From Paenarthrobacter sp. A20 (GTDB lineage Bacteria; Actinomycetota; Actinomycetes; Actinomycetales; Micrococcaceae): a stretch of DNA of 64,000 nt. Both the position numbers and the translations under genes were made by a program. How positions within the stretch are numbered: the first letter of the stretch is position 1; each line of letters opens with the position of its first letter. The notes below the pieces were generated by a model. It ran no database searches, was not told the origin of the DNA, and saw only the letters and a list, made by a program, of their open reading frames with translations. Positions 13,487-26,865 of this stretch are shown here, piece after piece. The stretch spans positions 1,364,001 through 1,428,000 of the forward strand of contig NZ_JALJWH010000001.1 in the NCBI RefSeq assembly GCF_024168825.1, written 5' to 3'.

Positions 13487-16400
13487 TCATCTGCGAACCA
13501 TGGCGCGGAGCAGTTTTACCGCCACGGAAAGAGCCGCGATGTCCACCGGACCTGGCTTGATGGCTTCCTGGATGGTCTCCTGGATGCGCGCCAATTGTTC
13601 GATGTTTCCGTGCTCCCAATCCATGATCCGTTCCACGGGATCAGCAGCCACGGTGGACCGCGGAGTATGCCGGACCACCGCCTTGGTCATGTCGGCCAGG
13701 ACCAGATACATGTCGTCCCTCAGCGCTGCCCTCGCCAACGACTCCCAGTGCGTGTCGCGCGGAAGCATGGTGATGTGTTCCAGCAAGGGGATTGCGGAGA
13801 TCCGCTCAAAAACGGCGAAGTACACCTCCGCCACACCCTCTGCCGGCTCCTGCAGTTCCTCGGCGATGGCGGAAATGTCCAGCAGTCCGTAGCTGACCAG
13901 GAGCTCTGAAGCGCGGATCCCCAAAGAGTGCGGCAGGCCGACGGCGTCAGTGTGGGCGAGGCGCTTCAAAGAGTGCGCCAGATTGATGCCATGCAGCAAC
14001 CCGGTGAAATTGGCGCGCATCAAGGACATCGGTTGTTCAAGCCGGGCCAAGGCATCGGAGATCGGCTTGTCACGGAAATCGTGGGTCACGTACCAGCGCA
14101 CGGACCGGTCCAACAGGCGCCGCATGTCCAGGGCCACGGCTGCGCCATGCTCGCTGGGTGTGCTGGCCGGCAGTCGGGCGATTGCCTGCGTTACCGAGTC
14201 CAGATCCCAGACGTTCCGCATCACCACGAACGCGCGTGCTACGGCCGCGGCTGACACGGTGGTCTCTTCCATGGCCCGGAAGGCGAACGCAATGCCACCC
14301 ATATTGATCATGTCGTTGGCCACCACAGTGGCTACGATCTCCCGGCGCAGGGGGTGGGTGGACAGATGTTCGCCGAACCGCTCCGAGACTTGTTGGGGGA
14401 AATAGTCGTGGAGCGTCTGCGAGAACCACGGATCGTCGGCAAGGCCTCCCTCCGTGAGTTCCCGGGCCAGCTCGATTTTGGCGTAGGCGGCCAGCACTGC
14501 GAGCTCGGGGGTTGTCAGCCCCTTGCCCGTCAGGACGCGGGCCTGGAGTTCCTCGTTGCCGGGGAGGAACTCCAGGTCCCGGTCCAGGTCGGTGACTGAC
14601 TCAAGCCAGTCCATGGTCCTTTCGAAGCTGGGGCTCCACTCGACGGCCAACTGCTTGTCATTGAGCAACAGGACGTTCTGGTGGTCATTGGTTTTCAGCA
14701 CCAGCTTCCCCACTTCACCTTGGAGTGAGTGCAGGAATACGGTCCGTTCGGCCGCAGGCATCCTGCCGGCCGCGATCATACGGTCCAGGAAGACCTTGAT
14801 GTTCACCTCATGGTCGGAACAATCCACCCCTGCCGAATTGTCGATCGCATCGGTGTTCACCAGGATGCCCGCCAGCGCAGCCTGGATCCGGCCGCGCTGG
14901 GTGACGCCGAGGTTGCCGCCTTCAGCGATGATGTGGGTGCGGAGCTGGTTGCCATCAACGCGGATGGCATCGTTCGCTTTATCCCCGACGTCGGCATGGG
15001 ACTCCGTGGACGACTTCACGTAGGTGCCAATTCCGCCGTTGTACAGCAGGTCCACCGGCGCCATGAGGATCGCCTTGAGGAGCTCCGGCGGACTCATGAC
15101 CTGCTGGCCGTTGGGTTCGGAGCCTGCTTCCAGCCCTGCACCCTCTTCCAAACCCAGGGCGAGCCGGACCTCCTCGGTAATCACTATTGACTTCGCCGTC
15201 CTCGCGAAGACACCGCCACCCGGGCTCAACCTTCCCGGGTTGTAGTCCGCCCAGGATGACCGGGGGAGCTTGAACAGGCGTTCCCGCTCGGCATAGGACT
15301 CCAGCGGATCCGGTGTGGGGTCCAGGAAGATATGCCGATGATCGAACGCAGCTACCAACTTGATGTGCTTGGAGAGAAGCATGCCATTGCCGAAGACATC
15401 ACCGCTCATGTCCCCGATGCCCACCACGGTGAAATCCTCCGCGGTTGAATCGATCATGAGTTCACTGAAATGGTGGCGCACCGATTCCCATGCGCCGCGG
15501 GCCGTGATGCCCATCTGCTTGTGGTCGTAACCCACTGAGCCGCCGGAAGCGAAGGCGTCCCCCAGCCAGAAGCCGTACTCCTCCGCCACAGCGTTGGCGA
15601 TGTCTGAGAAGGCGGCAGTTCCCTTATCCGCCGCGACCACCAGATAGTAGTCGTCGCCATCGTGGCGTACCACCCGGGGCGGGGTCGCCACCCGGCTGTT
15701 GCTGCCGCCGTCGGGATCCGGCATGAGGTTGTCCGTGACGTCCAGCAGCCCACGAATAAAAGTCCGGTAGCTTTCCTGGCCCTCCGCGAGCCAAGCAGCG
15801 CGATCCTCCGCCGGGTCCGGTAGTAGTTTGGGGAAGAAACCACCTTTGGCGCCGGTGGGAACAATCACGGCGTTCTTGACAGTTTGTGCCTTCACCAGCC
15901 CAAGGATTTCCGTCCGGAAGTCCTCGCGCCGGTCCGACCACCGGAGTCCTCCGCGGGCCAACGGTCCGAAGCGCAGGTGGACCCCCTCAACGCGGGGTGA
16001 GTAGACCCAGATTTCGAATTTAGGACGTGGCGCCGGTGCGGCCGGAATGCCGGACGGATTGAGTTTGAAGCTGATGTACGGCTTGTCCAAGTAGAAATTG
16101 GTGCGCAGGGTGGCGTCCACCAGGCTTGCGAGCGTCCGGAGGAGTCGGTCGGCGTCCAGGACCGGGATGGCGTCAATAGCCTCGCCAAGTCTGGCACGGG
16201 CTGCGTGGATGGCCTGCGTACGATGGCTCAGTTCGCTGCTGCCTTCCTCAAAAACATCGCCGTCAGGCCGGTGTGCGTGGCTGTTGAGTTCGGGATCAAA
16301 CAGGTCCGGCGCGTAGCTGTCCGGATTGAACTTCGCCTCGAAGAGTTCCAGGAGCGCATGTGTTGCCTCCGTGTTCGCCCGGAGTGTGTCCGCGATGAAG

Positions 16401-18385
16401 CCGTAAGAGTTGGTGCTCCCCAATTGCCGCAAGTACTTGGCGTAGGCGCGGAGGATAGCCACCCGCCGCCAACCGATGCCTTCGCGGATGACCAAGGCAT
16501 CGAAGGCGTCCGACTCCGCAGCGCCGCGCATGGCGGCGCAGAACGCGCCGCCCAGCAGTTCGCCCGTGGTCAACGGGTCCACCCCGCGCGGGTACTTCAG
16601 CCCGAGGTCGTACAGAAAGAACTGTCGGCCATCTCCACGCTGGACGTCGAACGGACGCTGGTCCAGTACCTTCAAGCCAAGGTTGTGGAAGAACGGAAGG
16701 ATCTGGGTGAGGCTCTGGGGGCGGGTCAAATACAGCCTGATCCTGGCATCTTCGATGAGAACAGCAGTTCCGGGTCGTTTGTAGACGGTCAGCAGCGGGT
16801 CTGGTTCCTCGCTTTGGCCTGGCGGAAAGCTCTCGAACTTCGAGATGTCCTCCACCGCGTCCTCTACTTCGAAATCGGCTTTGTAACTGGCAGGGAAGGC
16901 CGCGGCCCATTCGCGGGAAAGCCGCCCGGCCTCCTCCAACGGGTAGCGCGCCTGCAGCGCTTCGGCCAGGCCTTGGGCCCAGGTCCTGGTGGCGGCGATG
17001 ATCCGCGGCTCCAGTACCGAGGCATCTACGACGCCGGGAGTCCCCTGACGCGTCGACGCCGCCTGCGGTAACAGCACCCGGAAGAACACCCTGGCCATGG
17101 CGGATTCGCCCAAGCGGAGCTCAAACTCGATGGAGTCCGCACCGAATGCCTCGCGCAGTTCGCGTTCAATGTTGAGCCTGACTGCGGTGCTGTACCGACG
17201 GCGCGGGAGGAACACGAGCGCTGTCATGAACCGTCCATAGGAGTCCGGGCGCAGGAACAGTCGGGTGCTGTGGCGTTCCTGGAGTCGCAGGATTTCGCGG
17301 GCATGGGCGGCGAGCTGTTCGGCGTCGATGTGGAATAGCTCATCGCGGGGATAGCCCTCCATGACGGCCAGGAGTTCCTTGCCGTGATGCGAGCTGGGCG
17401 GGTAGCCAAACGCCCGCAGCACTTCCTTCACGGTGTCCCGGATGACAGGAATCTCCAAGGCCGATTGCGCCGTGGAATTGGGGGAGAAGAGACCAACAAA
17501 GGTTTGTCCGCCGTCCTTCCCCTCCGGGCCGGACGAGGCCACCGTAATCTCGTCGAGGTAGGCGCGGCGCAGGACCGTGGAACGCTGGGCGGACTTGGTG
17601 AGCGTGAGGATCCGGGGTTCTGCCCCCGGAGGATTCCTGTGCAGTTCCTCCGCGTCCATCGGTTCCCGCAGAACGCCTAGCCCGCGGCGCCCGCGAAATC
17701 CGAGGAACACGAAGTTCCCGTCGCCCAGCCATTGCAGCAGCTCGCGGGCTTCCCTGGCTTCAGGATCCGAGCCTGCCCGCTCACCCAAGGCCCTGACCTC
17801 GCGGGCCAGTTCCTCATGGATTGCAGCATGGTCCTCAGCGGCGGTCCGGACATCGTGCAGGACCCTGTGCAGCCGGCCAATGAGGAGTTCCGTCCCGGGC
17901 TCGTCCGGGAGCCTTGGAATCTCGATCGCCATCCACGCCTCGGCGAGTGGTCCGCCGTCGTACTCCTCGTGTTGGGCGGGCACCTGCGCACTGGTGCCGG
18001 CGGCGGAAGCTTCGACGCTGGCGGGGAGCCCGGTGCGGTGCGGTGCCCGCTGGATTTCGGTCAGGCGATGGGTGGCTGGATCGCGGGTGACGCTGAAGGT
18101 GGGATGGACGAGGAGTCGGATGGAGGCGGTATCCCGGGCGATCTCCGCAGTGACGGAGGGGAGGAGGTAGGGCATGTCATCTGCCACGACGGCCACCACG
18201 CTGGCGTCGGACTCATGCAGAACTCCGATGACGGCCTGCCCCGGTTCCCGCCGTTCGGCCAACGACCGGTGGTAGCGGGCGCGTTCCAGCAGCGTTTCCG
18301 GCGTGTAGTTGCGGGCGTCGTCCTCGGCCACGTGCTCGTAGTAGTCGGTCAGGAATCCGTCCGCCGGCTCGGTGCTGGAGGACAT
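13487..18385 (-). CDS. gdh: NAD-dependent glutamate dehydrogenase, large (180-kDa) class
   Basis: This 1632-residue enzyme oxidises glutamate to 2-oxoglutarate and ammonia with NAD+, a catabolic direction. Size and layout match the large bacterial NAD-GDH family: a long N-terminal regulatory region (about 1-700), the catalytic domain with PTGAKGGFFPKLLPDP (near residue 860) and GIGDMSGDVFGNGMLLS (near residue 990), then a long C-terminal helical region. The start at 18385 has only a weak ribosome site. The gene lies beside histidine catabolism genes that release glutamate. The IS30 element sits directly upstream and may affect its promoter. Confidence 0.95.
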   Translation of the reverse strand: MSSSTEPADGFLTDYYEHVAEDDARNYTPETLLERARYHRSLAERREPGQAVIGVLHESDASVVAVVADDMPYLLPSVTAEIARDTASIRLLVHPTFSVTRDPATHRLTEIQRAPHRTGLPASVEASAAGTSAQVPAQHEEYDGGPLAEAWMAIEIPRLPDEPGTELLIGRLHRVLHDVRTAAEDHAAIHEELAREVRALGERAGSDPEAREARELLQWLGDGNFVFLGFRGRRGLGVLREPMDAEELHRNPPGAEPRILTLTKSAQRSTVLRRAYLDEITVASSGPEGKDGGQTFVGLFSPNSTAQSALEIPVIRDTVKEVLRAFGYPPSSHHGKELLAVMEGYPRDELFHIDAEQLAAHAREILRLQERHSTRLFLRPDSYGRFMTALVFLPRRRYSTAVRLNIERELREAFGADSIEFELRLGESAMARVFFRVLLPQAASTRQGTPGVVDASVLEPRIIAATRTWAQGLAEALQARYPLEEAGRLSREWAAAFPASYKADFEVEDAVEDISKFESFPPGQSEEPDPLLTVYKRPGTAVLIEDARIRLYLTRPQSLTQILPFFHNLGLKVLDQRPFDVQRGDGRQFFLYDLGLKYPRGVDPLTTGELLGGAFCAAMRGAAESDAFDALVIREGIGWRRVAILRAYAKYLRQLGSTNSYGFIADTLRANTEATHALLELFEAKFNPDSYAPDLFDPELNSHAHRPDGDVFEEGSSELSHRTQAIHAARARLGEAIDAIPVLDADRLLRTLASLVDATLRTNFYLDKPYISFKLNPSGIPAAPAPRPKFEIWVYSPRVEGVHLRFGPLARGGLRWSDRREDFRTEILGLVKAQTVKNAVIVPTGAKGGFFPKLLPDPAEDRAAWLAEGQESYRTFIRGLLDVTDNLMPDPDGGSNSRVATPPRVVRHDGDDYYLVVAADKGTAAFSDIANAVAEEYGFWLGDAFASGGSVGYDHKQMGITARGAWESVRHHFSELMIDSTAEDFTVVGIGDMSGDVFGNGMLLSKHIKLVAAFDHRHIFLDPTPDPLESYAERERLFKLPRSSWADYNPGRLSPGGGVFARTAKSIVITEEVRLALGLEEGAGLEAGSEPNGQQVMSPPELLKAILMAPVDLLYNGGIGTYVKSSTESHADVGDKANDAIRVDGNQLRTHIIAEGGNLGVTQRGRIQAALAGILVNTDAIDNSAGVDCSDHEVNIKVFLDRMIAAGRMPAAERTVFLHSLQGEVGKLVLKTNDHQNVLLLNDKQLAVEWSPSFERTMDWLESVTDLDRDLEFLPGNEELQARVLTGKGLTTPELAVLAAYAKIELARELTEGGLADDPWFSQTLHDYFPQQVSERFGEHLSTHPLRREIVATVVANDMINMGGIAFAFRAMEETTVSAAAVARAFVVMRNVWDLDSVTQAIARLPASTPSEHGAAVALDMRRLLDRSVRWYVTHDFRDKPISDALARLEQPMSLMRANFTGLLHGINLAHSLKRLAHTDAVGLPHSLGIRASELLVSYGLLDISAIAEELQEPAEGVAEVYFAVFERISAIPLLEHITMLPRDTHWESLARAALRDDMYLVLADMTKAVVRHTPRSTVAADPVERIMDWEHGNIEQLARIQETIQEAIKPGPVDIAALSVAVKLLRAMVRR

Positions 18386-18439: not shown

Positions 18440-19704
18440 GGCAAAGTCAACTGGTGGGAGCAACGCTGGGGGTTAGGCCGCTTGTAGCAGCTGGTTTAGT
18501 CGGTTGGCTGGTGTTTCGAGGTTCAGGGTTGGTCTGGGTCGGCGGTTGAGTTTCGCTGCGACCAGGCGGAGGTCCTCGGGGGTGTGCACTGAAAGGTCGG
18601 TGCCTTTCTCGAACCAGAACCTCAGGAGCCTGTTGGTGTTCTCGTTGGTGCCGCGTTGCCAGGGTGAGTGCGGGTCGCAGAAATACAGGGTCGTTTCGAG
18701 TGCGGTTTGGATCTTCGCGTAGTCGGCCAGTTCGGTTCCGCGGTCCCAAGTGATCGAGAGTCGCAGGTGATCCGGGAGGGAAGCCATCTCCCGGATCATC
18801 GCAGCGGCAACGGTCTCCGCGGTGTGGTCCCCGGGCAGGTGCAGCAGGATCGTGAACCGGGTCGAGCGTTCCACCAACGTGCCGATCGCGGTCCCGTCGG
18901 TCCCGATGATGAGGTCCCCTTCCCAGTGGCCAGGCACTGCCCGGTCTTGGACCTCGGGCGGGCGTTGGCTGATCTTGAATGCCTCACCGTAAGGGCTGTT
19001 CTTACGGCGGTCACTGGTGTGCGGAACGCGTTGCTTGCGTTTCAGGCTGAGCTTTTCGGCCAGGTCCGCCCGCAGGTTCCCGCGGGTTTGGACATACAGC
19101 GCTTGATAGATCGTCTCGTGGCTCACCTGCATAGTCTGATCGTCGACGAAGTAGTGCGCCAACATTGAGGAGATCAATTTCGGGCTCCACCCGTCATCCA
19201 TCCACACACCGATCAGCCGGCAGAGGTCCTCGTCCTGGACGAGTTTGAACGGTTTGGGCCGGCGCCTGTCCTGGTGCGCTTTGGCGTGGGCGACCGAGGC
19301 GTAATACTTCCCGTCCGCGCTTCTGTGCCGTTTCACCTCCCGCCAGACCACGGACTTATCCCGGCCAATCAATTCACCGATCTTGGCGTAACTGAGCCCC
19401 AGCAGAACACCCATCTGGATCATCCCCCGCTCGCCCAGACCCAAGGCCCGGCCAGGTCCCTCTGCCGAAGGCGCAGGATCGGCAAGACCCCCGACAGCGC
19501 CACGGTTCAACGTCATCATCAGGCCAGACTGAGCCCACCAGTTTCCCCCGGTCGCGTGCACCGCCCCGACACGCCGGGAAGCCTCAAGAACCGAGACCCC
19601 CGCACACACCAAATCAACAAACTCGGCACGCGCACCCGAAGGAAACAACTTGACCATGAAACGCTCCATCAATCAGAGCGTTGCAACGACCCTATGACTT
19701 TGCC
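18440..19704 (-). mobile_element. IS30-family insertion sequence, 1265 bp, intact
   Basis: The element begins GGCAAAGTCA at 18440 and ends TGACTTTGCC at 19704. Its 28-base terminal inverted repeats (18440-18467 and 19677-19704) match at 22 of 28 positions. A 3-bp direct repeat AGC flanks it (18437-18439 and 19705-19707), the duplication size usual for IS30-family insertions. It carries one full-length transposase gene. Flanking sequences are the two halves of a palindrome, a target type known for this family. Confidence 0.88.
18473..19669 (-). CDS. IS30-family transposase
   Basis: This 398-residue DDE transposase has an N-terminal HTH region (SYAKIGELIGRDKSVVWREV near residues 95-115) and a C-terminal rve-like catalytic domain. 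Catalytic residues are visible as Asp in HWEGDLIIG, Asp in ITWDRGTEL and Glu in TNENTNRLLR. The frame is uninterrupted, so the enzyme may be active. ATG at 19669 is used; a TTG lies just before it. Confidence 0.95.
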   Translation of the reverse strand: MERFMVKLFPSGARAEFVDLVCAGVSVLEASRRVGAVHATGGNWWAQSGLMMTLNRGAVGGLADPAPSAEGPGRALGLGERGMIQMGVLLGLSYAKIGELIGRDKSVVWREVKRHRSADGKYYASVAHAKAHQDRRRPKPFKLVQDEDLCRLIGVWMDDGWSPKLISSMLAHYFVDDQTMQVSHETIYQALYVQTRGNLRADLAEKLSLKRKQRVPHTSDRRKNSPYGEAFKISQRPPEVQDRAVPGHWEGDLIIGTDGTAIGTLVERSTRFTILLHLPGDHTAETVAAAMIREMASLPDHLRLSITWDRGTELADYAKIQTALETTLYFCDPHSPWQRGTNENTNRLLRFWFEKGTDLSVHTPEDLRLVAAKLNRRPRPTLNLETPANRLNQLLQAA

Positions 19705-19752: not shown

Positions 19753-20613
19753 TTAGCGCTTGACGGCGTCCAGCTTGAGCATCTTGGCGATCACGCCGTC
19801 GAGTTCGGAGTCGTCGAAGATCTTCTTCCAGTCGTCCTTGATGATGGTGTCCTTGCCGTACTGGATGGCGATTTCGCAGGCTTCGGAGAACGGGTTGGAT
19901 CCGCGCAGGGCGTTGGTGAGGGCGATCTGGACGTGGCCGAACAGCATGGCCTTGGCTGCTTCCTCGGGAACGCCGGCGGTGTGCACGGTCTCGTGGAGTG
20001 CCTCGTTGAGGAGCGTGCCGATCATGCAGGCCACGGTTTCCACCAGGGTGGGTTCCAGGATGGCGAGTTGCTTGACCGTGACCCAGTGAACGTCGATCAC
20101 GGGTGCGTAGATGGTGCGGATGACGGCTTCGGCTACGTCGCGGGTTGCTGCGGGTGCGTCCTCGTCGATCGCGGAGACCACGTTCTGTGGGGCGCCCTGG
20201 CCGCCGAAGGTGTCGGCCCATTCTTCCTTGGTGGTGCGCTCCAGGAACACGGACGGGTGGCAGGGGTGCGCGACCGCCTGGACGACGTCGTCGCGCTTGG
20301 CCAGCAGGCCTGCGTACGCGGCGGCGGGATCGAGAGTCAGCAGGATCGCGCCTGACTTCATCTGCGGGACGACGCCCTCGGAAACGATGCCGAGGACGGT
20401 GTCCGGTACGGCGAGGATGACGACGTCGGCTGTGGGAACGGCGTCGTCGGTGGCGGTGATGTCGCGGCCTTCGGCGCGGACGCGGTCCTGGCCGGCGGGG
20501 GAGTTCTCACTGTAGAAGACGTTGTGGGTGGACTTCTGGAGGTTGCGGGAAACGCGCATCCCCATTTTGCCACCGGCTCCGACAACGGCGACGGTCAATT
20601 GTTCTGCTGACAT
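19753..20613 (-). CDS. apnO: 6-phosphogluconate-dehydrogenase-like oxidoreductase, probable D-apionate oxidoisomerase
   Basis: This 286-residue protein has an N-terminal Rossmann fold with VVGAGGKMG (residues 9-17) and a C-terminal helical domain of the 6-phosphogluconate/3-hydroxyisobutyrate dehydrogenase superfamily. Proteins of this type encoded beside a decarboxylase-like TIM barrel, erythrulose kinase and erythrulose-phosphate isomerases are known as ApnO, which converts D-apionate to 3-oxo-isoapionate with NAD+. That specific role is inferred from gene neighbourhood plus fold. It is the last gene of the minus-strand operon, one base after the preceding stop, and the IS30 element lies just downstream. 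Confidence 0.7.
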   Translation of the reverse strand: MSAEQLTVAVVGAGGKMGMRVSRNLQKSTHNVFYSENSPAGQDRVRAEGRDITATDDAVPTADVVILAVPDTVLGIVSEGVVPQMKSGAILLTLDPAAAYAGLLAKRDDVVQAVAHPCHPSVFLERTTKEEWADTFGGQGAPQNVVSAIDEDAPAATRDVAEAVIRTIYAPVIDVHWVTVKQLAILEPTLVETVACMIGTLLNEALHETVHTAGVPEEAAKAMLFGHVQIALTNALRGSNPFSEACEIAIQYGKDTIIKDDWKKIFDDSELDGVIAKMLKLDAVKR

Positions 20614-20614
20614 T

Positions 20615-21427
20615 TCACTTGCTCCTTAGGAAATCGAGGCTTTGTTGGGTCCACTGGTTTTCGAGGCGGATGGTCTCCGCTTCGGAGTCCTTCCACGGCA
20701 GCCAGTGCTCCACGATTTGGTTGATGTTTCTTTCTTTGGGCTGGATCTTTTCGACCATGTAGTCGTAGTCGAGAAGGCCTTCGCCGAGGGGTGCGCCCGA
20801 GTACGTAAACCCGACCCATCCCTGCTTGCGGCTGAACGCAAAGTCTTTGATGTGCATGTTCAGGACATAAGGCGCGACGGCGTCAATCACCTGCCGCGGC
20901 ATCTCCAGCGCAGCCACGGTGTTGGCGGGGTCGCTGCAGATTCCGAGGTAGGGGCTGTTGACGTGGCGGACGACGTCCAGGATCCGTTCCGTGGGGACCT
21001 GTTCATAGGTCTCGACGGCGATCCTCACCCCGGCTGCCTGGAATTCCGGCAGGATCCCGGTGAAGATCCTGACGGTTTCCTCGGTGTCCGGGGTGTGGCC
21101 GGGGACGTTGAACATGGTCCGCAGCAGGTCCGAGCCCAGCATCTGGGCGATGTGCAGGAACTTCGCCAGGTGCTCCGGACGGATACCCTTGGTCCCCACT
21201 TCCAGGGTGATGCCCAGCTCGTCCGCCGTACTGCGGACGGCGGCGAGCCCGGCGTCGTTCATGTCTTCCAGCGGCGCGTAGTCGCAGATCTGGAAGAGGT
21301 CCACGCCCATATCCGACGCCTTACGCAGCGCGTCATGGATGCTCAGCGGCTGGCTGACCTGGTCCGAGAGCTGCCAGAAGAACGCGTAGCTGCTGAGGCC
21401 GATCCTGCTTTGCGAGGCGCCGTTCAT
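20615..21427 (-). CDS. oiaC: xylose-isomerase-like TIM barrel, probable 3-oxo-isoapionate decarboxylase
   Basis: This 270-residue protein is a sugar phosphate isomerase/epimerase-type TIM barrel. Metal-ligand candidates are Glu in VRIAVETYEQ, Asp in GICSDPANTV and His/Asp in LNMHIKDFAF. In known D-apionate pathways a member of this family (OiaC) decarboxylates 3-oxo-isoapionate to L-erythrulose. The assignment rests on the neighbours: an ApnO-like enzyme downstream and erythrulose kinase and isomerases upstream. It overlaps the lerI-like gene by 4 bases. A plain sugar isomerase remains possible. Confidence 0.68.
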   Translation of the reverse strand: MNGASQSRIGLSSYAFFWQLSDQVSQPLSIHDALRKASDMGVDLFQICDYAPLEDMNDAGLAAVRSTADELGITLEVGTKGIRPEHLAKFLHIAQMLGSDLLRTMFNVPGHTPDTEETVRIFTGILPEFQAAGVRIAVETYEQVPTERILDVVRHVNSPYLGICSDPANTVAALEMPRQVIDAVAPYVLNMHIKDFAFSRKQGWVGFTYSGAPLGEGLLDYDYMVEKIQPKERNINQIVEHWLPWKDSEAETIRLENQWTQQSLDFLRSK

Positions 21428-22248
21428 GCTGCCACCGCCTTAGCGGCCAAGCGCGCGGCGGTCTCGTCCAGGATGGTTTTCAGCGCTGCGGGATGGTGCG
21501 CGAAGCGGCCCAGGAACAAGCCGGCGACGGCGGTGTCCAGTTCCGTGATGAGGCCCGGTCCGGCGCTGCCGCCGTAGATGACGCGGCTCTCTTCCTGGCC
21601 GGGCAACGAACGCAGGTGCTCGTCCAGTCCGCGGACCACGGCGCTGATGTATTCCGGTGTTGCAGGTTCCGGGGCGCCGATGGCCCATTGCGGCTCGTAG
21701 GCCACGATGGTCCGGTCTGTGGGGCCGAGAGTTGCGGCGCGGTTGAGGGCGGCGTCGATTTCGGCCGTGCACTGGGCGATGGCTTCCTCGGGGGAGCCTG
21801 CGATCAGTTCGCCAACGCACAACACCGGGGTGAGCCCGTTGCGGTAAGTGGCAGCGGTCTTCAGGCCGATGATCCGTTCGTCTTCGCCGAAGATCCTGCG
21901 GCGCTCCGCGTGCCCAACCTCAACGTACCGTCCGCCGAGTTCGGCGACGGTTTTGCCGCCTACCTCGCCGGTGTACGCGCCTTCGTCTTCCCAGAAGATG
22001 TCCTGCGCTCCGGTACCAACGCCGGCCGCGCCCAGGATCCGGGCAGCTTCGGGCAGGGCGGGGAGAGTGGGCAGCACGAACAGTTCGATGTCGCCGCCCA
22101 CCACTGCCGGGTGCTTGAAGGCGATGGTGGCGATGTCGCGGCAGTAGTCCACGGAGCGCTGGTAGCCGAAGTACATCTTCAGGCTCACGCCGATCACCGC
22201 ACGTGGTTGCCGGGAAGCCGCGTCGGTGGTCTTAGCAGGAAGTGACAC
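21424..22248 (-). CDS. lerI: triosephosphate-isomerase-like protein, probable L-erythrulose-1-phosphate isomerase
   Basis: This 274-residue TIM homologue keeps the catalytic residues: Lys24 (GVSLKMYFG), His113 ([12 protein letters not shown]) and Glu185 ([10 protein letters not shown]). Substitutions around the usual NWKMN and AYEPVWAIGTG motifs mark it as a paralogue rather than the housekeeping enzyme. In tetritol and apionate pathways such proteins convert L-erythrulose-1-phosphate to D-erythrulose-4-phosphate. The start is GTG at 22248, inside the end of the rpiB-like gene (17-base overlap) with GAGG directly upstream, suggesting tight coupling. Confidence 0.82.
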
Positions 22249-22702
22249 CCTCGTAGTCCTTAATCAGTGTGACCTTCTCGGCCGAGGCAGAGGTTTCGTC
22301 GAAGGTGTAAGTGAGCCATTCCTTGGCCAGGCGGCGGGCGAGTTCCAGCCCGACCACGCGCTGGCCGAACGTGAGGACCTGGGCGTTGTTGCTCAGGACC
22401 GAGCGTTCCACGGAGAAGGAATCGTGGGCGGTGACGGCACGGATGCCGGGGACCTTGTTGGCGGCGATCGCGACGCCCAGGCCGGTGCCGCAGACCAGGA
22501 GTGCCCGGTCGGCCTTGCCGGCGGCGATCAGTTCAGCAGCGGCGATGGCTACGGACGGGTACGGAGTGTGGCTCGTGGCGTCCACTCCGACGTCGGTGAC
22601 GGACTCAACGAGGCCGTTCGCTTCCAAGTCGGCTTTGAGGGCTTCCTTGTACTCGAATCCGGCGTCGTCCGATCCTATGACCAGGCGCAGTTTGGTGCTC
22701 AT
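22232..22702 (-). CDS. derI: RpiB/LacAB-family isomerase, probable D-erythrulose-4-phosphate isomerase
   Basis: This 156-residue protein belongs to the RpiB/LacAB sugar-phosphate isomerase family. The catalytic Cys71 is in LLVCGTGLG, and the N-terminal motif reads GSDDAGF where RpiB has GSDHAGF. In erythritol/threitol and apionate pathways family members interconvert D-erythrulose-4-phosphate and D-erythrose-4-phosphate. Its ATG overlaps the kinase stop by 4 bases. The specific substrate is inferred from the neighbouring kinase and TIM-like isomerase. Confidence 0.82.
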
Positions 22703-24459
22703 GCGTTCTCCTTAACTGGTGTGTTCCCTGCGGTTTGTGTTTCCGCGAAAGTGTTGTGGATGGCCCGGACGATCAATGCCATGGAGACGGCTCCGGCGTC
22801 GGGGGTTCCGAGGCTCTTTTCGGCGTGCGGGCGGGCGCGGCCCATGAGGGGCAGCAGGTTGGCGGTCGCTTCGGCGGATTGCTCGGCGATGGTGGCAGCG
22901 GCGCCCCATGCATCCCGAAGTGTTGCTCCGCCCTGAACTGCCGCGGTGAGTGCTTCGCTGAACGGCGACAGGACGTCCACCAAGGTTTTGTCGCCTACCT
23001 TGGCCTTGCCGAAGTCCATGATGGAACGCTTCGCTTCGGCCACACCCTCGGCCACGGCTACGGCGCTGGGGGCGTCGGTGTCGCCGACGGATTGTCCGAC
23101 GGCGCGCAGGGCCATGCCCCACAGCGCGCCCGAGGTGCCACCGGCTTTGTCCGCCCAGGCGTCGGCGGCCAGGTTCAGGGCGGTCCCTGCCCCTGCACCG
23201 CGTTCGACGGCGTCTGCCGCAGCAGCGACGGCGGCGTGGATTCCACGCTCCATGCCGATCCCGTGGTCACCGTCGCCGGCGATCGCGTCGATCCGGCCGA
23301 GTTCTTCCACGTTGGCGTCAACCACGGCTTTGGCGGCGTTGAGGGCCGCGAGGATGGTGGGCGCTGCGGTTTTGGACTCTTTGCTGGCGTCCGGGATCAC
23401 GGATTGCTGCTCGGCGGCCATGGTGAGCTGGTCGGCGTCGAGCGCTTGAGCGCTGACCGCACCGCGGCGGAAAGCCGGGGCGTCCGCGGGTGCGAGCCAG
23501 AGTTCCTCGAGCTCGGAGTCCAGCCAGAACAGTGTGAGGGAGGTGCCGGCCATGTCGAAACTGGTCACGAGCTCGCCCACCTGCGGGTCCACAGCCTCGA
23601 TACCGGCCTCGGCGAGCAGCTGGGCCACGCGGCGGTAGACCACGAACAGCTCTTCGTATTTGACGCTGCCCAGGCCGTTGAGGATCGGGACCACCCGTGC
23701 GCCGTGCACGGAAAGGGCGTCCGGGATCTCGGCAAGGAGGTCCTTGACCAGCAGTTCGGCGAGTTCATCCGCCGTCGGGATGTTCGTCTCGGCAATGCCG
23801 GGTTCGCCGTGGATGCCCATGCCCACTGCCATGCGCCCTTCGGGAACGGAGAAGAGCGGGTGGTCCGCGCCCGGGAGCGTGCACCCGGTGAACGCGACGC
23901 CGAAGGAACGGGTGCGGTCATTGGCGCGCTCGGCGATCTCCACCACAGCGTCCATGGAGTAGTCGGCCTCAGCGGCAGCGGCCACCACCTTGAAGACTGT
24001 CAGGTCCCCGGCGATCCCGCGGCGCTTGTGTTTCTCGGCCAGGGGAGCCGAAGAGATGTCGTCCGTGACTGCGATGCTCCTGCAGTCGATGCCCTCGGCA
24101 CGGAGTTTTGCCTGGGCCTGGGTGAAGTGCAGGACGTCGCCGGCGTAATTGCCGTAGCCCAGGAGTACGCCGCCGCCGTTATCCGCTGCCTTGGCCACGT
24201 TATAGACCTGCTGTGCCGAGGGTGAGGCGAATAGGTTGCCCATCGCCGCGCCGTGCGCCAGGCCCTGGCCAACCAGCCCGGCGAAGGCCGGGTAGTGGCC
24301 GGAGCCCCCGCCGATCACCAAGGCGACCGAATCCGGCGTCGACCGCGTGCTGCGGGCAACCCCACCGGAGACGCGCCGGACCCACCGGCTGTGCGATGCG
24401 ACGAAGCCTTCGATCATTTCATCAGCGAAGGCTGAGGGCTCGTTGAAGAGGCGGGTCAT
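22699..24459 (-). CDS. lerK: dihydroxyacetone-kinase-family kinase (DhaK-DhaL fusion), probable L-erythrulose kinase
   Basis: This 586-residue protein fuses a DhaK substrate domain (about 1-335) to a DhaL ATP-binding domain (about 370-585). His217 in GMGIHGEPG is the residue that forms the hemiaminal with the ketose, and GGGSGHYP lies at residues 50-57. The DhaL Asp cluster is in [10 protein letters not shown]. Such ATP-dependent fusions phosphorylate dihydroxyacetone or erythrulose; the neighbours favour L-erythrulose. ATG 24459 is preceded by GGAGA at 6 bases; the longer frame to 24528 is not conserved-looking. Confidence 0.88.
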
Positions 24460-24544
24460 GGGGTATCTCCTGGGCTGTACTGAAGGGTGTGAAGTGTGGT
24501 GGTTGTGCCCTCCCTGCTGGAAGGGCACAACCTGCTTGTGGTGG

Positions 24545-25912
24545 TTACGGCTCCGCGTGCTGCCCGGCCCCTTGTGGGTCCAGCGCCTCGGCAGGCGTGC
24601 CAGCAGATGCCTTGCCCTGCTTGCTGAGGGTCACCATGAGGATGGAGGAGAGCAACATGAAGCCGCCGACGACGAACATCGGGACCGTGTAGCCGCCCGT
24701 CAGATCCTTAAGCCAGCCGGTGATGTAGCCGGCGCTGAAGCCCGCCAGGTTGCCCACCGTGTTGATCAGTGCGATGCCTGCTGCTGCGGCTGCGCCGGTG
24801 AGGAACTGCGTGGGGACGGTCCAGAAGTTCGGCAGGGCAGCGAAGATGGACATGGCCGTGACCGTGATGACGGCGATGGTTGCCGCGGGGGATCCGGCAA
24901 ACAGCGCCAGAGGGATGCTGACACCGCCGATGAGGGCCGGAAGGGCGATGTGCCAGGTCTTCACGCCGCGCTTGGTGGCGTCCTTGGACCAGAAGTACAG
25001 GGCAAAGGCTGCCGGCAGATACGGAATGGCCGTGATGAGTCCCTTCTGGAACACATCGAACTTGGTGCCGTAGAGGCCTTCGAAGCCGGCGATGATGGTC
25101 GGCAGGAAGAAGCCCAGCGCGTACAAGCCGTAGATGAAGCCGAAGTAGATCAGGGAGAGCATCCAGACGCGGCCGTTGCCGAACACCGTGCGAACGCTGA
25201 CGTGCTTGTTGCTGGCGGCGGTTTCCTTCTTTTCCTTTTCGAGGGCGCCGGTCAGCCAGGTCTTCTCTTCTGCGGTAAGCCACTTGGCCTTGGAGGGGTT
25301 GTCTGCCAGGTAGAACCAGGCGATGATGCCGACGATGATCGCGGGGATGGCGACTCCGAAGAACATGAAACGCCAGCCCTCGAGGCCAAAGAACATTCCG
25401 TGCTGCTGGATCAAAGCGCCTGCGAGGGGAGCACCGATCACCGTGGTGAGCGGCTGCGCCAAGTAGAAGAGGGCCAGGATCTTGCTGCGGTGCTTGGACG
25501 GCACCCAGAGGCTCAGGAAGAGGATGGCGCCGGGGAAGAAGCCGGCTTCTGCCACACCCAGGATGAATCGGAGAATGTAGAGCTGCTCAACGTTGCCCAC
25601 CCAGGTGAAGAGCAAGGACACGATGCCCCAGCTGACCATGATGCGGGCCAGCCAGCGGCGGGCGCCGAACTTGTGGAGGGCCAGGTTGCTGGGGATTTCG
25701 AGCAGGATGTACCCGATAAAGAAGACTCCGGAGGCGAAGCCGAACTGTGCCGCTGAGAGGGCGAGGTCGTTATTCATGCCGTTGGGGCCGGCGAAAGAAA
25801 TGGCGGTGCGGTCCAGATAGTTGATGAAGAACATCAGGGCGACGAACGGCACAAGCCGGACTGCCACCTTCTTAATTGCGGATTTTTCGACCACCGATTG
25901 TGTGGTGTCCAC
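24545..25912 (-). CDS. MFS transporter, anion:cation symporter (ACS) family
   Basis: This 455-residue, 12-segment transporter resembles the ACS family that takes up sugar acids and other organic anions. It has FINYLDRTAISFAGP near residue 25, the family's EIPSNLALHKFGARRWLARI in TM2-3 and GVAEAGFFPGAILFLSLWVP near TM4. GTG 25912 with AGGAG five bases upstream is the preferred start. It is first in the minus-strand operon and divergent from the FadR-type regulator. An organic-acid substrate such as D-apionate fits the downstream enzymes and is an inference. Confidence 0.88.
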   Translation of the reverse strand: MDTTQSVVEKSAIKKVAVRLVPFVALMFFINYLDRTAISFAGPNGMNNDLALSAAQFGFASGVFFIGYILLEIPSNLALHKFGARRWLARIMVSWGIVSLLFTWVGNVEQLYILRFILGVAEAGFFPGAILFLSLWVPSKHRSKILALFYLAQPLTTVIGAPLAGALIQQHGMFFGLEGWRFMFFGVAIPAIIVGIIAWFYLADNPSKAKWLTAEEKTWLTGALEKEKKETAASNKHVSVRTVFGNGRVWMLSLIYFGFIYGLYALGFFLPTIIAGFEGLYGTKFDVFQKGLITAIPYLPAAFALYFWSKDATKRGVKTWHIALPALIGGVSIPLALFAGSPAATIAVITVTAMSIFAALPNFWTVPTQFLTGAAAAAGIALINTVGNLAGFSAGYITGWLKDLTGGYTVPMFVVGGFMLLSSILMVTLSKQGKASAGTPAEALDPQGAGQHAEP

Positions 25913-26038
25913 ATTGACTCCTAGATGTTGGTGTCCCTGCGGATCCTGCACTGGATGCGCCGGGCTGGTTCGTGGCATGGCCGGCGGGGATCCGGCGATG
26001 GCGAAGCTTGTGATTTAAACCATAGGACTGGATTCTAA

Positions 26039-26054
26039 ATTGGTCAACCGGTTG
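26039..26054. promoter_or_regulatory. operator copy 1 for the FadR/GntR regulator
   Basis: ATTGGTCAACCGGTTG contains the perfect dyad GTCAACCGGTTGAC (26043-26056) and differs by one base from the copy at 26096-26111. Both lie in the 212-base region between the divergent transporter and regulator genes. Confidence 0.7.
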
Positions 26055-26095
26055 ACTGGTTAAAGTTTTTTGGGCGCTGACTAGTCGCCGCAGGG

Positions 26096-26111
26096 ATTGG
26101 TCATCCGGTTG
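26096..26111. promoter_or_regulatory. operator copy 2 for the FadR/GntR regulator
   Basis: ATTGGTCATCCGGTTG repeats operator copy 1 with one mismatch. It ends two bases before a possible -10 element TACGCT (26113-26118), so a bound repressor would block the regulator's own promoter. Confidence 0.65.
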
Positions 26112-26112
26112 C

Positions 26113-26118
26113 TACGCT
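26113..26118 (+). promoter_or_regulatory. -10 element TACGCT for a leaderless regulator transcript
   Basis: TACGCT matches TANNNT and is followed by six bases and then GTG at 26125, the geometry of a leaderless start. No -35 box is clear. Confidence 0.4.
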
Positions 26119-26124
26119 GTGAAG

Positions 26125-26865
26125 GTGTCAGCGAACTCAGCAGCAGCGGCCCACATGACGGCCGCGCTTGCCCCCATGGAGCAGGGCTCCGTTGTGTCCG
26201 AAGTAGCGGAGCGCCTCCTTGCCTACTTCACGAGTGGAGACATCGCCCCCGGCACCCGGCTTCCGGCAGAGCGGCAGTTGGCGGCTTCACTTGGTGTTGG
26301 ACGTTCGGCCGTCCGCGAGGCCCTCGCTGCCCTGGAGATCCTCGGGATCGTGATCGTCCGTCCCGGCTCGGGAACGTACCTGCGCGACGGTGTCTCCGAA
26401 CTTTTGCCGCGGACGCTCAGCTGGGGGTTGATGCTGGGGGAGCCGCGGACCCGCGAGCTGGTGGAATTGCGCAGCGGACTGGAAGTTCAGGCTGTTGAGT
26501 TGGCGGCCCTGAGGGTCACGGATGAAGCCTTGGAACGGATGCGGGCCGACCTTGACGTCATGGAGAGGAACCTCGACGACCTCGCAGCCTTCGTGGAAGC
26601 CGATGCGGCCTTCCACCGCGAGATCGCCGCGGCCTCCGGCAACATGGTCCTGGAAGAACTCCTCCAAAGCATCCGCTCGCTGCTGCGGATCTGGGTGGAC
26701 CGGGCACTGACCGATGAAGGCCACGCCGAGGCTGCCCTGCGCGAACACACTGCCATCTACGAGGCACTTGTTGCCCGGGACGCGTCCGCCGTTTCACAGA
26801 ACATGCGCTCGCACATGGCTACGGCATCGCGGCGCCTGTTGGCGGGCTTCGACGCAGCCCAATAA
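26125..26865 (+). CDS. FadR-subfamily GntR transcriptional regulator
   Basis: This protein of about 246 residues has an N-terminal winged HTH (APGTRLPAERQLAASLGVGRSAVREALAALE, quoted here only by its type and lying near residues 40-70) and an FCD all-helical effector domain with His/Asp metal-site candidates (VEADAAFHREI). It is divergent from the apionate-type operon and flanked by paired operators. GTG 26125 is given because of the -10 element; GTG 26119 and ATG 26155 or 26176 are alternatives, and none has a clear ribosome site. The ligand is probably a pathway intermediate. Confidence 0.88.
   Translation: MSANSAAAAHMTAALAPMEQGSVVSEVAERLLAYFTSGDIAPGTRLPAERQLAASLGVGRSAVREALAALEILGIVIVRPGSGTYLRDGVSELLPRTLSWGLMLGEPRTRELVELRSGLEVQAVELAALRVTDEALERMRADLDVMERNLDDLAAFVEADAAFHREIAAASGNMVLEELLQSIRSLLRIWVDRALTDEGHAEAALREHTAIYEALVARDASAVSQNMRSHMATASRRLLAGFDAAQ

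Follow-up and report, generated by a model that had tools for sequence, protein, structure and literature searches.

Paenarthrobacter sp. A20 carries, at positions 19753..26865 of the window analysed here (a 64-kb stretch of DNA, C1:1364001-1428000 of the 5.38-Mb genome), a run of seven adjacent genes that had been predicted, from the letters of the DNA alone, to encode a complete route from D-apionate to D-erythrose-4-phosphate. All seven open reading frames (ORFs) exist there and belong to the families that this original prediction gave them: six minus-strand genes, in the order major facilitator superfamily (MFS) carrier, DhaKL kinase, RpiB-like isomerase, isomerase resembling triosephosphate isomerase (TIM), xylose-isomerase-like TIM barrel and PGDH_C oxidoreductase, together with a divergent FadR-type (GntR/FCD) regulator. 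In that order, the intergenic gaps are +16, -4, -17, -4 and +1 bp. Read from the oxidoreductase to the regulator, the Pfam families are PGDH_C, the xylose-isomerase-like TIM barrel, TIM, RpiB, Dak1 with Dak2, MFS_1, and GntR with FCD. We consider it highly probable that this operon would import D-apionate, the acid corresponding to the plant-wall sugar apiose, and degrade it to a sugar phosphate of central metabolism; each reaction, the transported compound, the repression and the inducer are ones that we infer from the genes, their order and families, a conserved operator, and the company that the genes keep. A chance neighbourhood was ruled out, since the same genes recur together in two phyla: beyond the Arthrobacter group they are found in Gammaproteobacteria and in further Actinomycetota, with identities of 42-83%.

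Enzymes of the proposed pathway

In the proposed pathway, the MFS carrier would bring D-apionate into the cell, where the ApnO-like D-apionate oxidoisomerase of the PGDH_C family (19753..20613; PF16896, 194.8 bits) would oxidise it and shift its hydroxymethyl group, giving 3-oxo-isoapionate; the OiaC-like TIM barrel (20615..21427; PF01261), a proposed 3-oxo-isoapionate decarboxylase, would then remove CO2 to leave L-erythrulose. The DhaK-DhaL fusion kinase (22699..24459; PF02733 and PF02734) would turn this into L-erythrulose-1-phosphate, the TIM-like isomerase (21424..22248; PF00121) would take the product on to D-erythrulose-4-phosphate, and the RpiB-like isomerase (22232..22702; PF02502) would yield D-erythrose-4-phosphate, feeding the pentose phosphate pathway. 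Matching enzyme families, in the order proposed here, make up the ApnO-OiaC-LerK-LerI-DerI branch that the D-apiose study of Carter et al. 2018 (Nat Chem Biol 14:696) reportedly contains, with a decarboxylase of the xylose-isomerase family; it differs in that the window's genome gave no ApsD or ApnL match, and possibly in the MFS carrier that the window operon includes. Organic-anion MFS carriers and FadR-type regulators also belong to tetronate pathways of the LtnD/OtnI/OtnK/OtnC type. However, the operon has no four-carbon-acid-sugar kinase and no class II aldolase family, its oxidoreductase is of the PGDH_C family and its kinase of the Dak type; on this gene content we rejected a tetronate pathway, to which we attach practically no probability.

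For ApnO and OiaC, the reference for comparison was the oiaX cluster as named by NCBI. Some relatives among the best 120 of 4799 protein matches to ApnO bear the Joint Genome Institute (JGI) name 'D-apionate oxidoisomerase', and some among the best 120 of 2013 matches to OiaC are called '3-oxoisoapionate decarboxylase', in both cases as annotation only; Arthrobacter and Paenarthrobacter rank first among the organism-named matches in these same best 120. The GAGGKMG and HPCHP stretches of ApnO are invariant in 11 rows, three of which are linked to OiaX/K. An OiaC-like TIM barrel accompanies ApnO in the window operon, and its Glu139, Asp166, His192 and Glu240, invariant in 18/18 rows, presumably fit the metal site of the D-tagatose 3-epimerase fold. 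Its predicted model (mean predicted local distance difference test score, pLDDT, of 90) finds its nearest fold among D-tagatose 3-epimerases. Neither protein was seen to group with proteins that act on a different known compound (a tetronate or an inositol derivative, for instance), a placement that would have spoken against D-apionate; the ApnO clade does differ from the rhizobial one.

The kinase is a LerK-like Dak1-Dak2 protein, predicted to act on L-erythrulose, with a His217 in GIHGEPG that we take to be the catalytic histidine. This numbering, given in the original prediction, is correct when counted from the ATG at 24459, the more likely start (a ribosome-binding-site-like stretch lies upstream); the residue is number 240 in the longer GTG ORF, which is open to 24528. 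Lys24, His113 and Glu185 of the TIM-like isomerase are likewise present as predicted, and are invariant in 9/9 aligned rows. This protein has Ser22 in the N-x-K stretch, a serine found also in the R. etli cluster enzyme and in a second TIM-like protein of the window's genome; the glycolytic TIM of the genome, a separate protein with GNWKM at C1:3571145 that adjoins a phosphoglycerate-kinase-like ORF, has Asn at this place. PDB 11ef, an 'L-erythrulose-1-phosphate isomerase', is the fifth-best PDB match to the TIM-like protein at 114 bits, and the scores do not favour it, as canonical TIMs reach 120 bits and the putative TIM 3s6d reaches 143. The RpiB-like protein passes TIGR02133 (RPI_actino) with 206.2 bits against a cut-off of 168.2. 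Elsewhere in the genome, two further DhaKL-RpiB pairs are found at C1:2198554-2204821 and C1:829746-831950, and one pair is accompanied by another LerI-like TIM and by an MFS protein at 40%; perhaps these are tetritol or tetrulose modules.

Several points count against these identities. The window ApnO shares just 41% identity with its counterpart in the oiaX cluster on R. etli p42f. In an ApnO tree of 108 rows, from which rows shorter than 201 aligned residues had been dropped beforehand, a very long branch splits six OiaX/OiaK-linked rows from the 102 others, and the window ApnO sits outside the group of six; the rows of this tree are homologues, none identified as an assayed ApnO. The OiaC fold matches epimerases, and fold cannot tell an epimerase from a decarboxylase. 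The RpiB-like protein, moreover, falls under the cut-off of NF051858, a DerI model named for rhizobia (143.3 against 240 bits), which the RpiB protein of the R. etli cluster passes.

The gene set and its carrier in other bacteria

A scan with the ApnO alignment, taking one genome per species, confirmed at least 365 loci, of which the best 80 were kept; close enterobacteria are over-represented among these, because the first row of the alignment came from Pantoea. Locus counts rest on tblastn or genome searches, since the GC-frame gene caller misses genes (for example, the TIM in L124), and some loci end at contig ends. Among the 80 loci, OiaC is found in 77, the MFS carrier at >=60% in 65, and the kinase, TIM and RpiB in 60 each; ApnL is found in 21, ApsD at >=45% in 15, and OiaX in none. 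All 15 ApsD loci also hold ApnL, and the two homologues share a locus with the core genes in Pseudomonas, Halomonadaceae and Salinisphaera. This company supports D-apionate as the substrate, as first proposed. In the two Pseudomonas loci (L081 and L084), a single locus holds the MFS carrier, kinase, RpiB (80-81% identical), TIM, OiaC, ApnO, ApsD, a sugar-binding protein, ApnL and a regulator; that is, the complete core, to which ApsD, ApnL and the sugar-binding protein are additional. Loci in Erwinia E602, Pantoea At-9b and Pectobacterium (L032, L033, L075 and L079) keep the order MFS, DhaKL, TIM, OiaC, ApnO, with RpiB nearby, but differ in having a sugar-binding (SorC-like) regulator gene, and their ApnO and OiaC are 62-65% and 50-53% identical, respectively; for Erwinia E602 and Pantoea At-9b, the records sharing this core set are plasmids. 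The oiaX cluster on p42f of R. etli CFN 42 (L187) resembles the window operon in its ApnO-type, TIM and RpiB isomerase genes, followed by a DhaK gene, but where the window operon has OiaC it has OiaX and a four-carbon acid sugar kinase, and it also holds an ATP-binding cassette (ABC) transporter, a Gfo/Idh dehydrogenase and an ApnL-size gene.

Could the operon instead be a tetritol or tetrulose cluster, with the ApnO and OiaC homologues in a side role? Its kinase and isomerases resemble those that process tetritol-derived erythrulose (PMC10733421 and PMC12780249), and the genome has its two further kinase-RpiB pairs. However, no tetritol dehydrogenase family is among the Pfam families of the operon, and OiaC is kept in 17 of the 20 loci without a TIM match and in 18 of the 20 without a kinase match (contig ends explain some of these), which argues that the ApnO-OiaC pair, and not the kinase, is the core. 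We thus regard a tetritol cluster as very improbable. As a side observation, a 468-residue ORF directly follows ApnO in two actinobacterial metagenome genomes (L108, 10890-12296; L116, 8573-9979), in which no OiaC or OiaX was found and an ApnL homologue is present; neither Pfam nor NCBIfam gave a match for the L108 protein, near whose gene L108 also has one for a ketol-acid reductoisomerase. The 468-residue protein is a candidate for another step after ApnO.

Returning to the operon as a D-apionate pathway, its carrier (24545..25912; TIGR00893, 275.8 bits against a cut-off of 395) is of the organic-anion MFS type and is the proposed D-apionate importer; the ORF is open to an ATG at 25978, but the GTG at 25912, preceded by AGGAG, is the likelier start. 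Within the genus we sampled 101 genomes, drawn evenly from a larger same-genus group. OiaC at >=76% identity occurs in 28 of them and the carrier (E<=1e-150) in 26, every one OiaC-positive. Outside the genus, three plasmid loci of Burkholderiaceae (Paraburkholderia, Cupriavidus and Caballeronia NK8) have the carrier, at 66-69%, adjoining ApnO, with OiaX and OiaK also present. The carrier thus accompanies ApnO whichever of two lower pathways follows, and this argues that it takes the substrate of ApnO. No second transporter is present among the Pfam-assigned genes of the window operon.

Nevertheless, the enzymes could act as proposed with the MFS protein carrying another anion or exporting an intermediate, and D-apionate entering by other means, an explanation that overlaps with the one we prefer. 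It draws on two of the 28 OiaC-positive genomes, which lack a carrier match, and on plasmids: the carrier at >=60% occurs in 12 plasmid records, six of them from Rhizobium, and in 4/4 Rhizobium plasmid loci examined, where the carrier is at 72-73%, no apionate gene was seen in the surrounding 8 kb; in L183 an ornithine cyclodeaminase gene adjoins the carrier. These four loci weaken the carrier as an apionate-only marker. Set against them are the OiaC genes of all 26 carrier genomes, the three OiaX/OiaK loci and the want of any other transporter in the operon, and we judge another role for the carrier unlikely, though deserving of more weight than the remaining alternatives.

A shared operator and a proposed upper pathway in relatives

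Carrier and regulator (26119..26865, plus strand; PF00392 and PF07729) are separated, ORF to ORF, by 140 bp, and this gap holds a 14-bp palindrome, GTCAACCGGTTGAC, at 26043..26056. The palindrome is identical in 19/19 MFS-regulator gaps, those of the window and of 18 of the 20 fetched same-genus relatives; the alignment omits the other two, which have no MFS match, and of these L128 has a one-mismatch copy between the regulator and kinase genes and L133 has none. A Saccharopolyspora locus (L105) has the palindrome between carrier and regulator as well. Two promoter-like sites occur in the stretch against a shuffle mean of 0.1, and one of them, TTGACC-17-TATGGT (26019..26047, minus strand), faces the operon and is its proposed promoter; the palindrome overlaps its first hexamer, and the TATGGT hexamer is kept in 17/19 gaps. 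A possible, weaker second operator copy with three mismatches lies before the regulator start (26100..26113), and a second copy with <=4 mismatches occurs in 12/19 gaps. At the level of sequence, then, the gap has the conserved palindrome over a promoter-like site expected of a FadR-type repressor operon. The simplest reading of the operator would be that the regulator, a proposed repressor, binds GTCAACCGGTTGAC over the promoter and keeps the operon off until a compound of the pathway releases it.

In the window's genome, GTCAACCGGTTGAC has a single perfect copy; in relatives, it extends to what would be the upper pathway from apiose. An ApnL homologue occurs in 18 of the 101 genomes, namely 13 of the 28 OiaC-positive and 5 of the 73 OiaC-negative ones (Fisher p 1.6e-5), and it adjoins the regulator gene in 9 of the 20 fetched relatives, although in two of these nine a single short predicted ORF intervenes. 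The ApnL loci compared (L153-L170) represent 17 of these 18 genomes, with one genome contributing two loci and G091 none. Among the 13 loci from OiaC-positive genomes, nine have a perfect operator copy 37-135 bp before ApnL, and in two more (L162 and L163) the operator heads a same-strand gene run containing ApnL; among the five loci from OiaC-negative genomes, no operator was found before ApnL. The operator-headed run of L163 includes a PF13204 'Apiosidase' protein, to which ORFs in L162 and L164 are related, and beyond ApnL in L153 and L159 lie an oligopeptide-type ABC transporter, GH3, GH43 and an alpha-L-rhamnosidase. A 251-residue short-chain dehydrogenase/reductase (SDR; L153, 5997-6752) is found at E<=1e-70 in 11 genomes, all OiaC-positive and all with the SDR within 1.1 kb of the ApnL match; in the wider set of 80 loci, it occurs at >=60% in three (L109, L113 and L117), all with ApnL and none with ApsD. 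This SDR is a candidate D-apiose dehydrogenase in place of ApsD in relatives. That ApnL, and in L163 a PF13204 protein, lie near clusters with a shared operator again supports D-apionate as the substrate.

This part of the interpretation, too, meets opposing evidence. The same-genus ApnL homologues are only 27-38% identical to the rhizobial query, two of the 13 ApnL loci from OiaC-positive genomes (L157 and L164) have no operator before ApnL, and sites with <=1 mismatch to the operator number 2 in the whole genome, per strand, against 3 for a backwards control pattern. The five OiaC-negative genomes (L166-L170) retain their ApnL homologue beside an arginase-family gene. In these loci, ApnL is also near a xanthine-permease-family gene (families were scanned in L167 only), and the neighbourhood resembles the window's, with the operator absent.

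Is the window's cluster complete, as had been claimed? From D-apionate onward it is; upstream of D-apionate the claim does not hold, as searches of the genome at the chosen thresholds gave no ApnL, ApsD, ApnL-linked SDR or apiosidase. ApnL had no match at E<=1e-10, a search that matched 18 other genomes, nor at 0.001, a search that matched nowhere; the SDR had none at E<=1e-70 (11 other genomes matched); PF13204 was not found at the threshold used (2/14 control genomes matched); and ApsD had no match at E<=1e-40, in a search that matched 0/101 genomes and so has no positive control. An apiose-to-apionate upper pathway within this genome was set aside on these searches, and the route would therefore begin with imported D-apionate.

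The same searches bear on whether the operon degrades another C5 sugar acid, with the PGDH_C enzyme a plain 3-dehydrogenase acting on a straight-chain pentonate ahead of the same lower pathway. This would be chemically sound by our own reasoning, as decarboxylation of a 3-oxo-pentonate also yields erythrulose; a long branch separates the window ApnO from rhizobial ApnO, and neither ApnL nor ApsD was found in the genome. On the other hand, ApsD accompanies ApnL in 15 of the 80 loci with the same core, ApnL is present in 21, and the ApnL runs of the genus share the operator, one of them with the PF13204 'Apiosidase' protein. All told, we hold another C5 acid to be improbable as the substrate.

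Flanking region and implications

Just downstream of apnO, and outside the pathway, lies an IS30-family element (18440..19704, minus strand, both ends read by eye; NF033563, 260.4 bits), which ends ~48 bp past the apnO stop codon. Damage to apnO by this element was rejected: ApnO ends as its relatives do, and the element is beyond the stop codon. The element interrupts a palindromic, terminator-like repeat; L118, the closest relative, has such a palindrome unbroken, and the element has no match at the corresponding place there. A second IS30 copy in the genome, 98% identical, is likewise flanked by the halves of a similar palindrome. Beyond the element, at 13487-18385 of the window, is a 1632-residue ORF, presumably an NAD-glutamate dehydrogenase; ORFs of 1635-1857 residues follow apnO in L122, L126, L127 and L130, and not in the closest relative.

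Turning to what has been described elsewhere, apiose, a branched sugar, occurs in plant cell walls and in numerous plant glycosides (passages of PMC11747546), and apiose carbon therefore reaches soil widely. The same passages report growth on D-apiose by a strain whose cluster is annotated ApnL, ApsD, ApnO, OiaK and OiaX. RuBisCO-like steps of a D-apiose pathway are cited in part of PMC6302742, and a different apiose route, with isomerase and transketolase genes, appears in part of PMC13001218. Erythrulose kinase and isomerase steps are described in sections of PMC10733421 and PMC12780249; from the latter, the tetritol pathway of Mycolicibacterium smegmatis and the erythritol pathway of Brucella also convert erythrulose phosphates to erythrose-4-phosphate, but start from tetritols, whereas the window pathway would start from a sugar acid. 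Among the papers listed, we found none on an MFS-fed or actinobacterial version of D-apionate degradation, in a literature search whose scope excluded most subscription papers. As to the suggestion that the MFS-fed version might be novel, no description was found in the papers listed on apionate and related terms, and MFS-fed clusters are common in two phyla (65/80 loci). Pathways of this type have been described before; three details are possibly new, namely the carrier-fed form, the operator together with its regulon, and the SDR replacing ApsD in relatives.

Beyond the operon itself, a broader proposal can be made, one that we find quite possible even as we lean slightly towards doubt. A D-apionate-specific MFS carrier would let soil actinobacteria, and many plant-associated Gammaproteobacteria, use apionate freed by others; in the Arthrobacter group, this would happen under a FadR-type regulator whose operator GTCAACCGGTTGAC in relatives also controls the upper pathway, i.e. 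an 'Apiosidase'-domain protein, an apionolactonase and an SDR replacing the Gfo/Idh apiose dehydrogenase. If the operon itself does degrade imported D-apionate, it would give the apiose pathways already known an entry point for scavenged acid. It would also supply a carrier candidate and, in the regulator and its named operator, a possible sensor, and would point to a dehydrogenase candidate in relatives.

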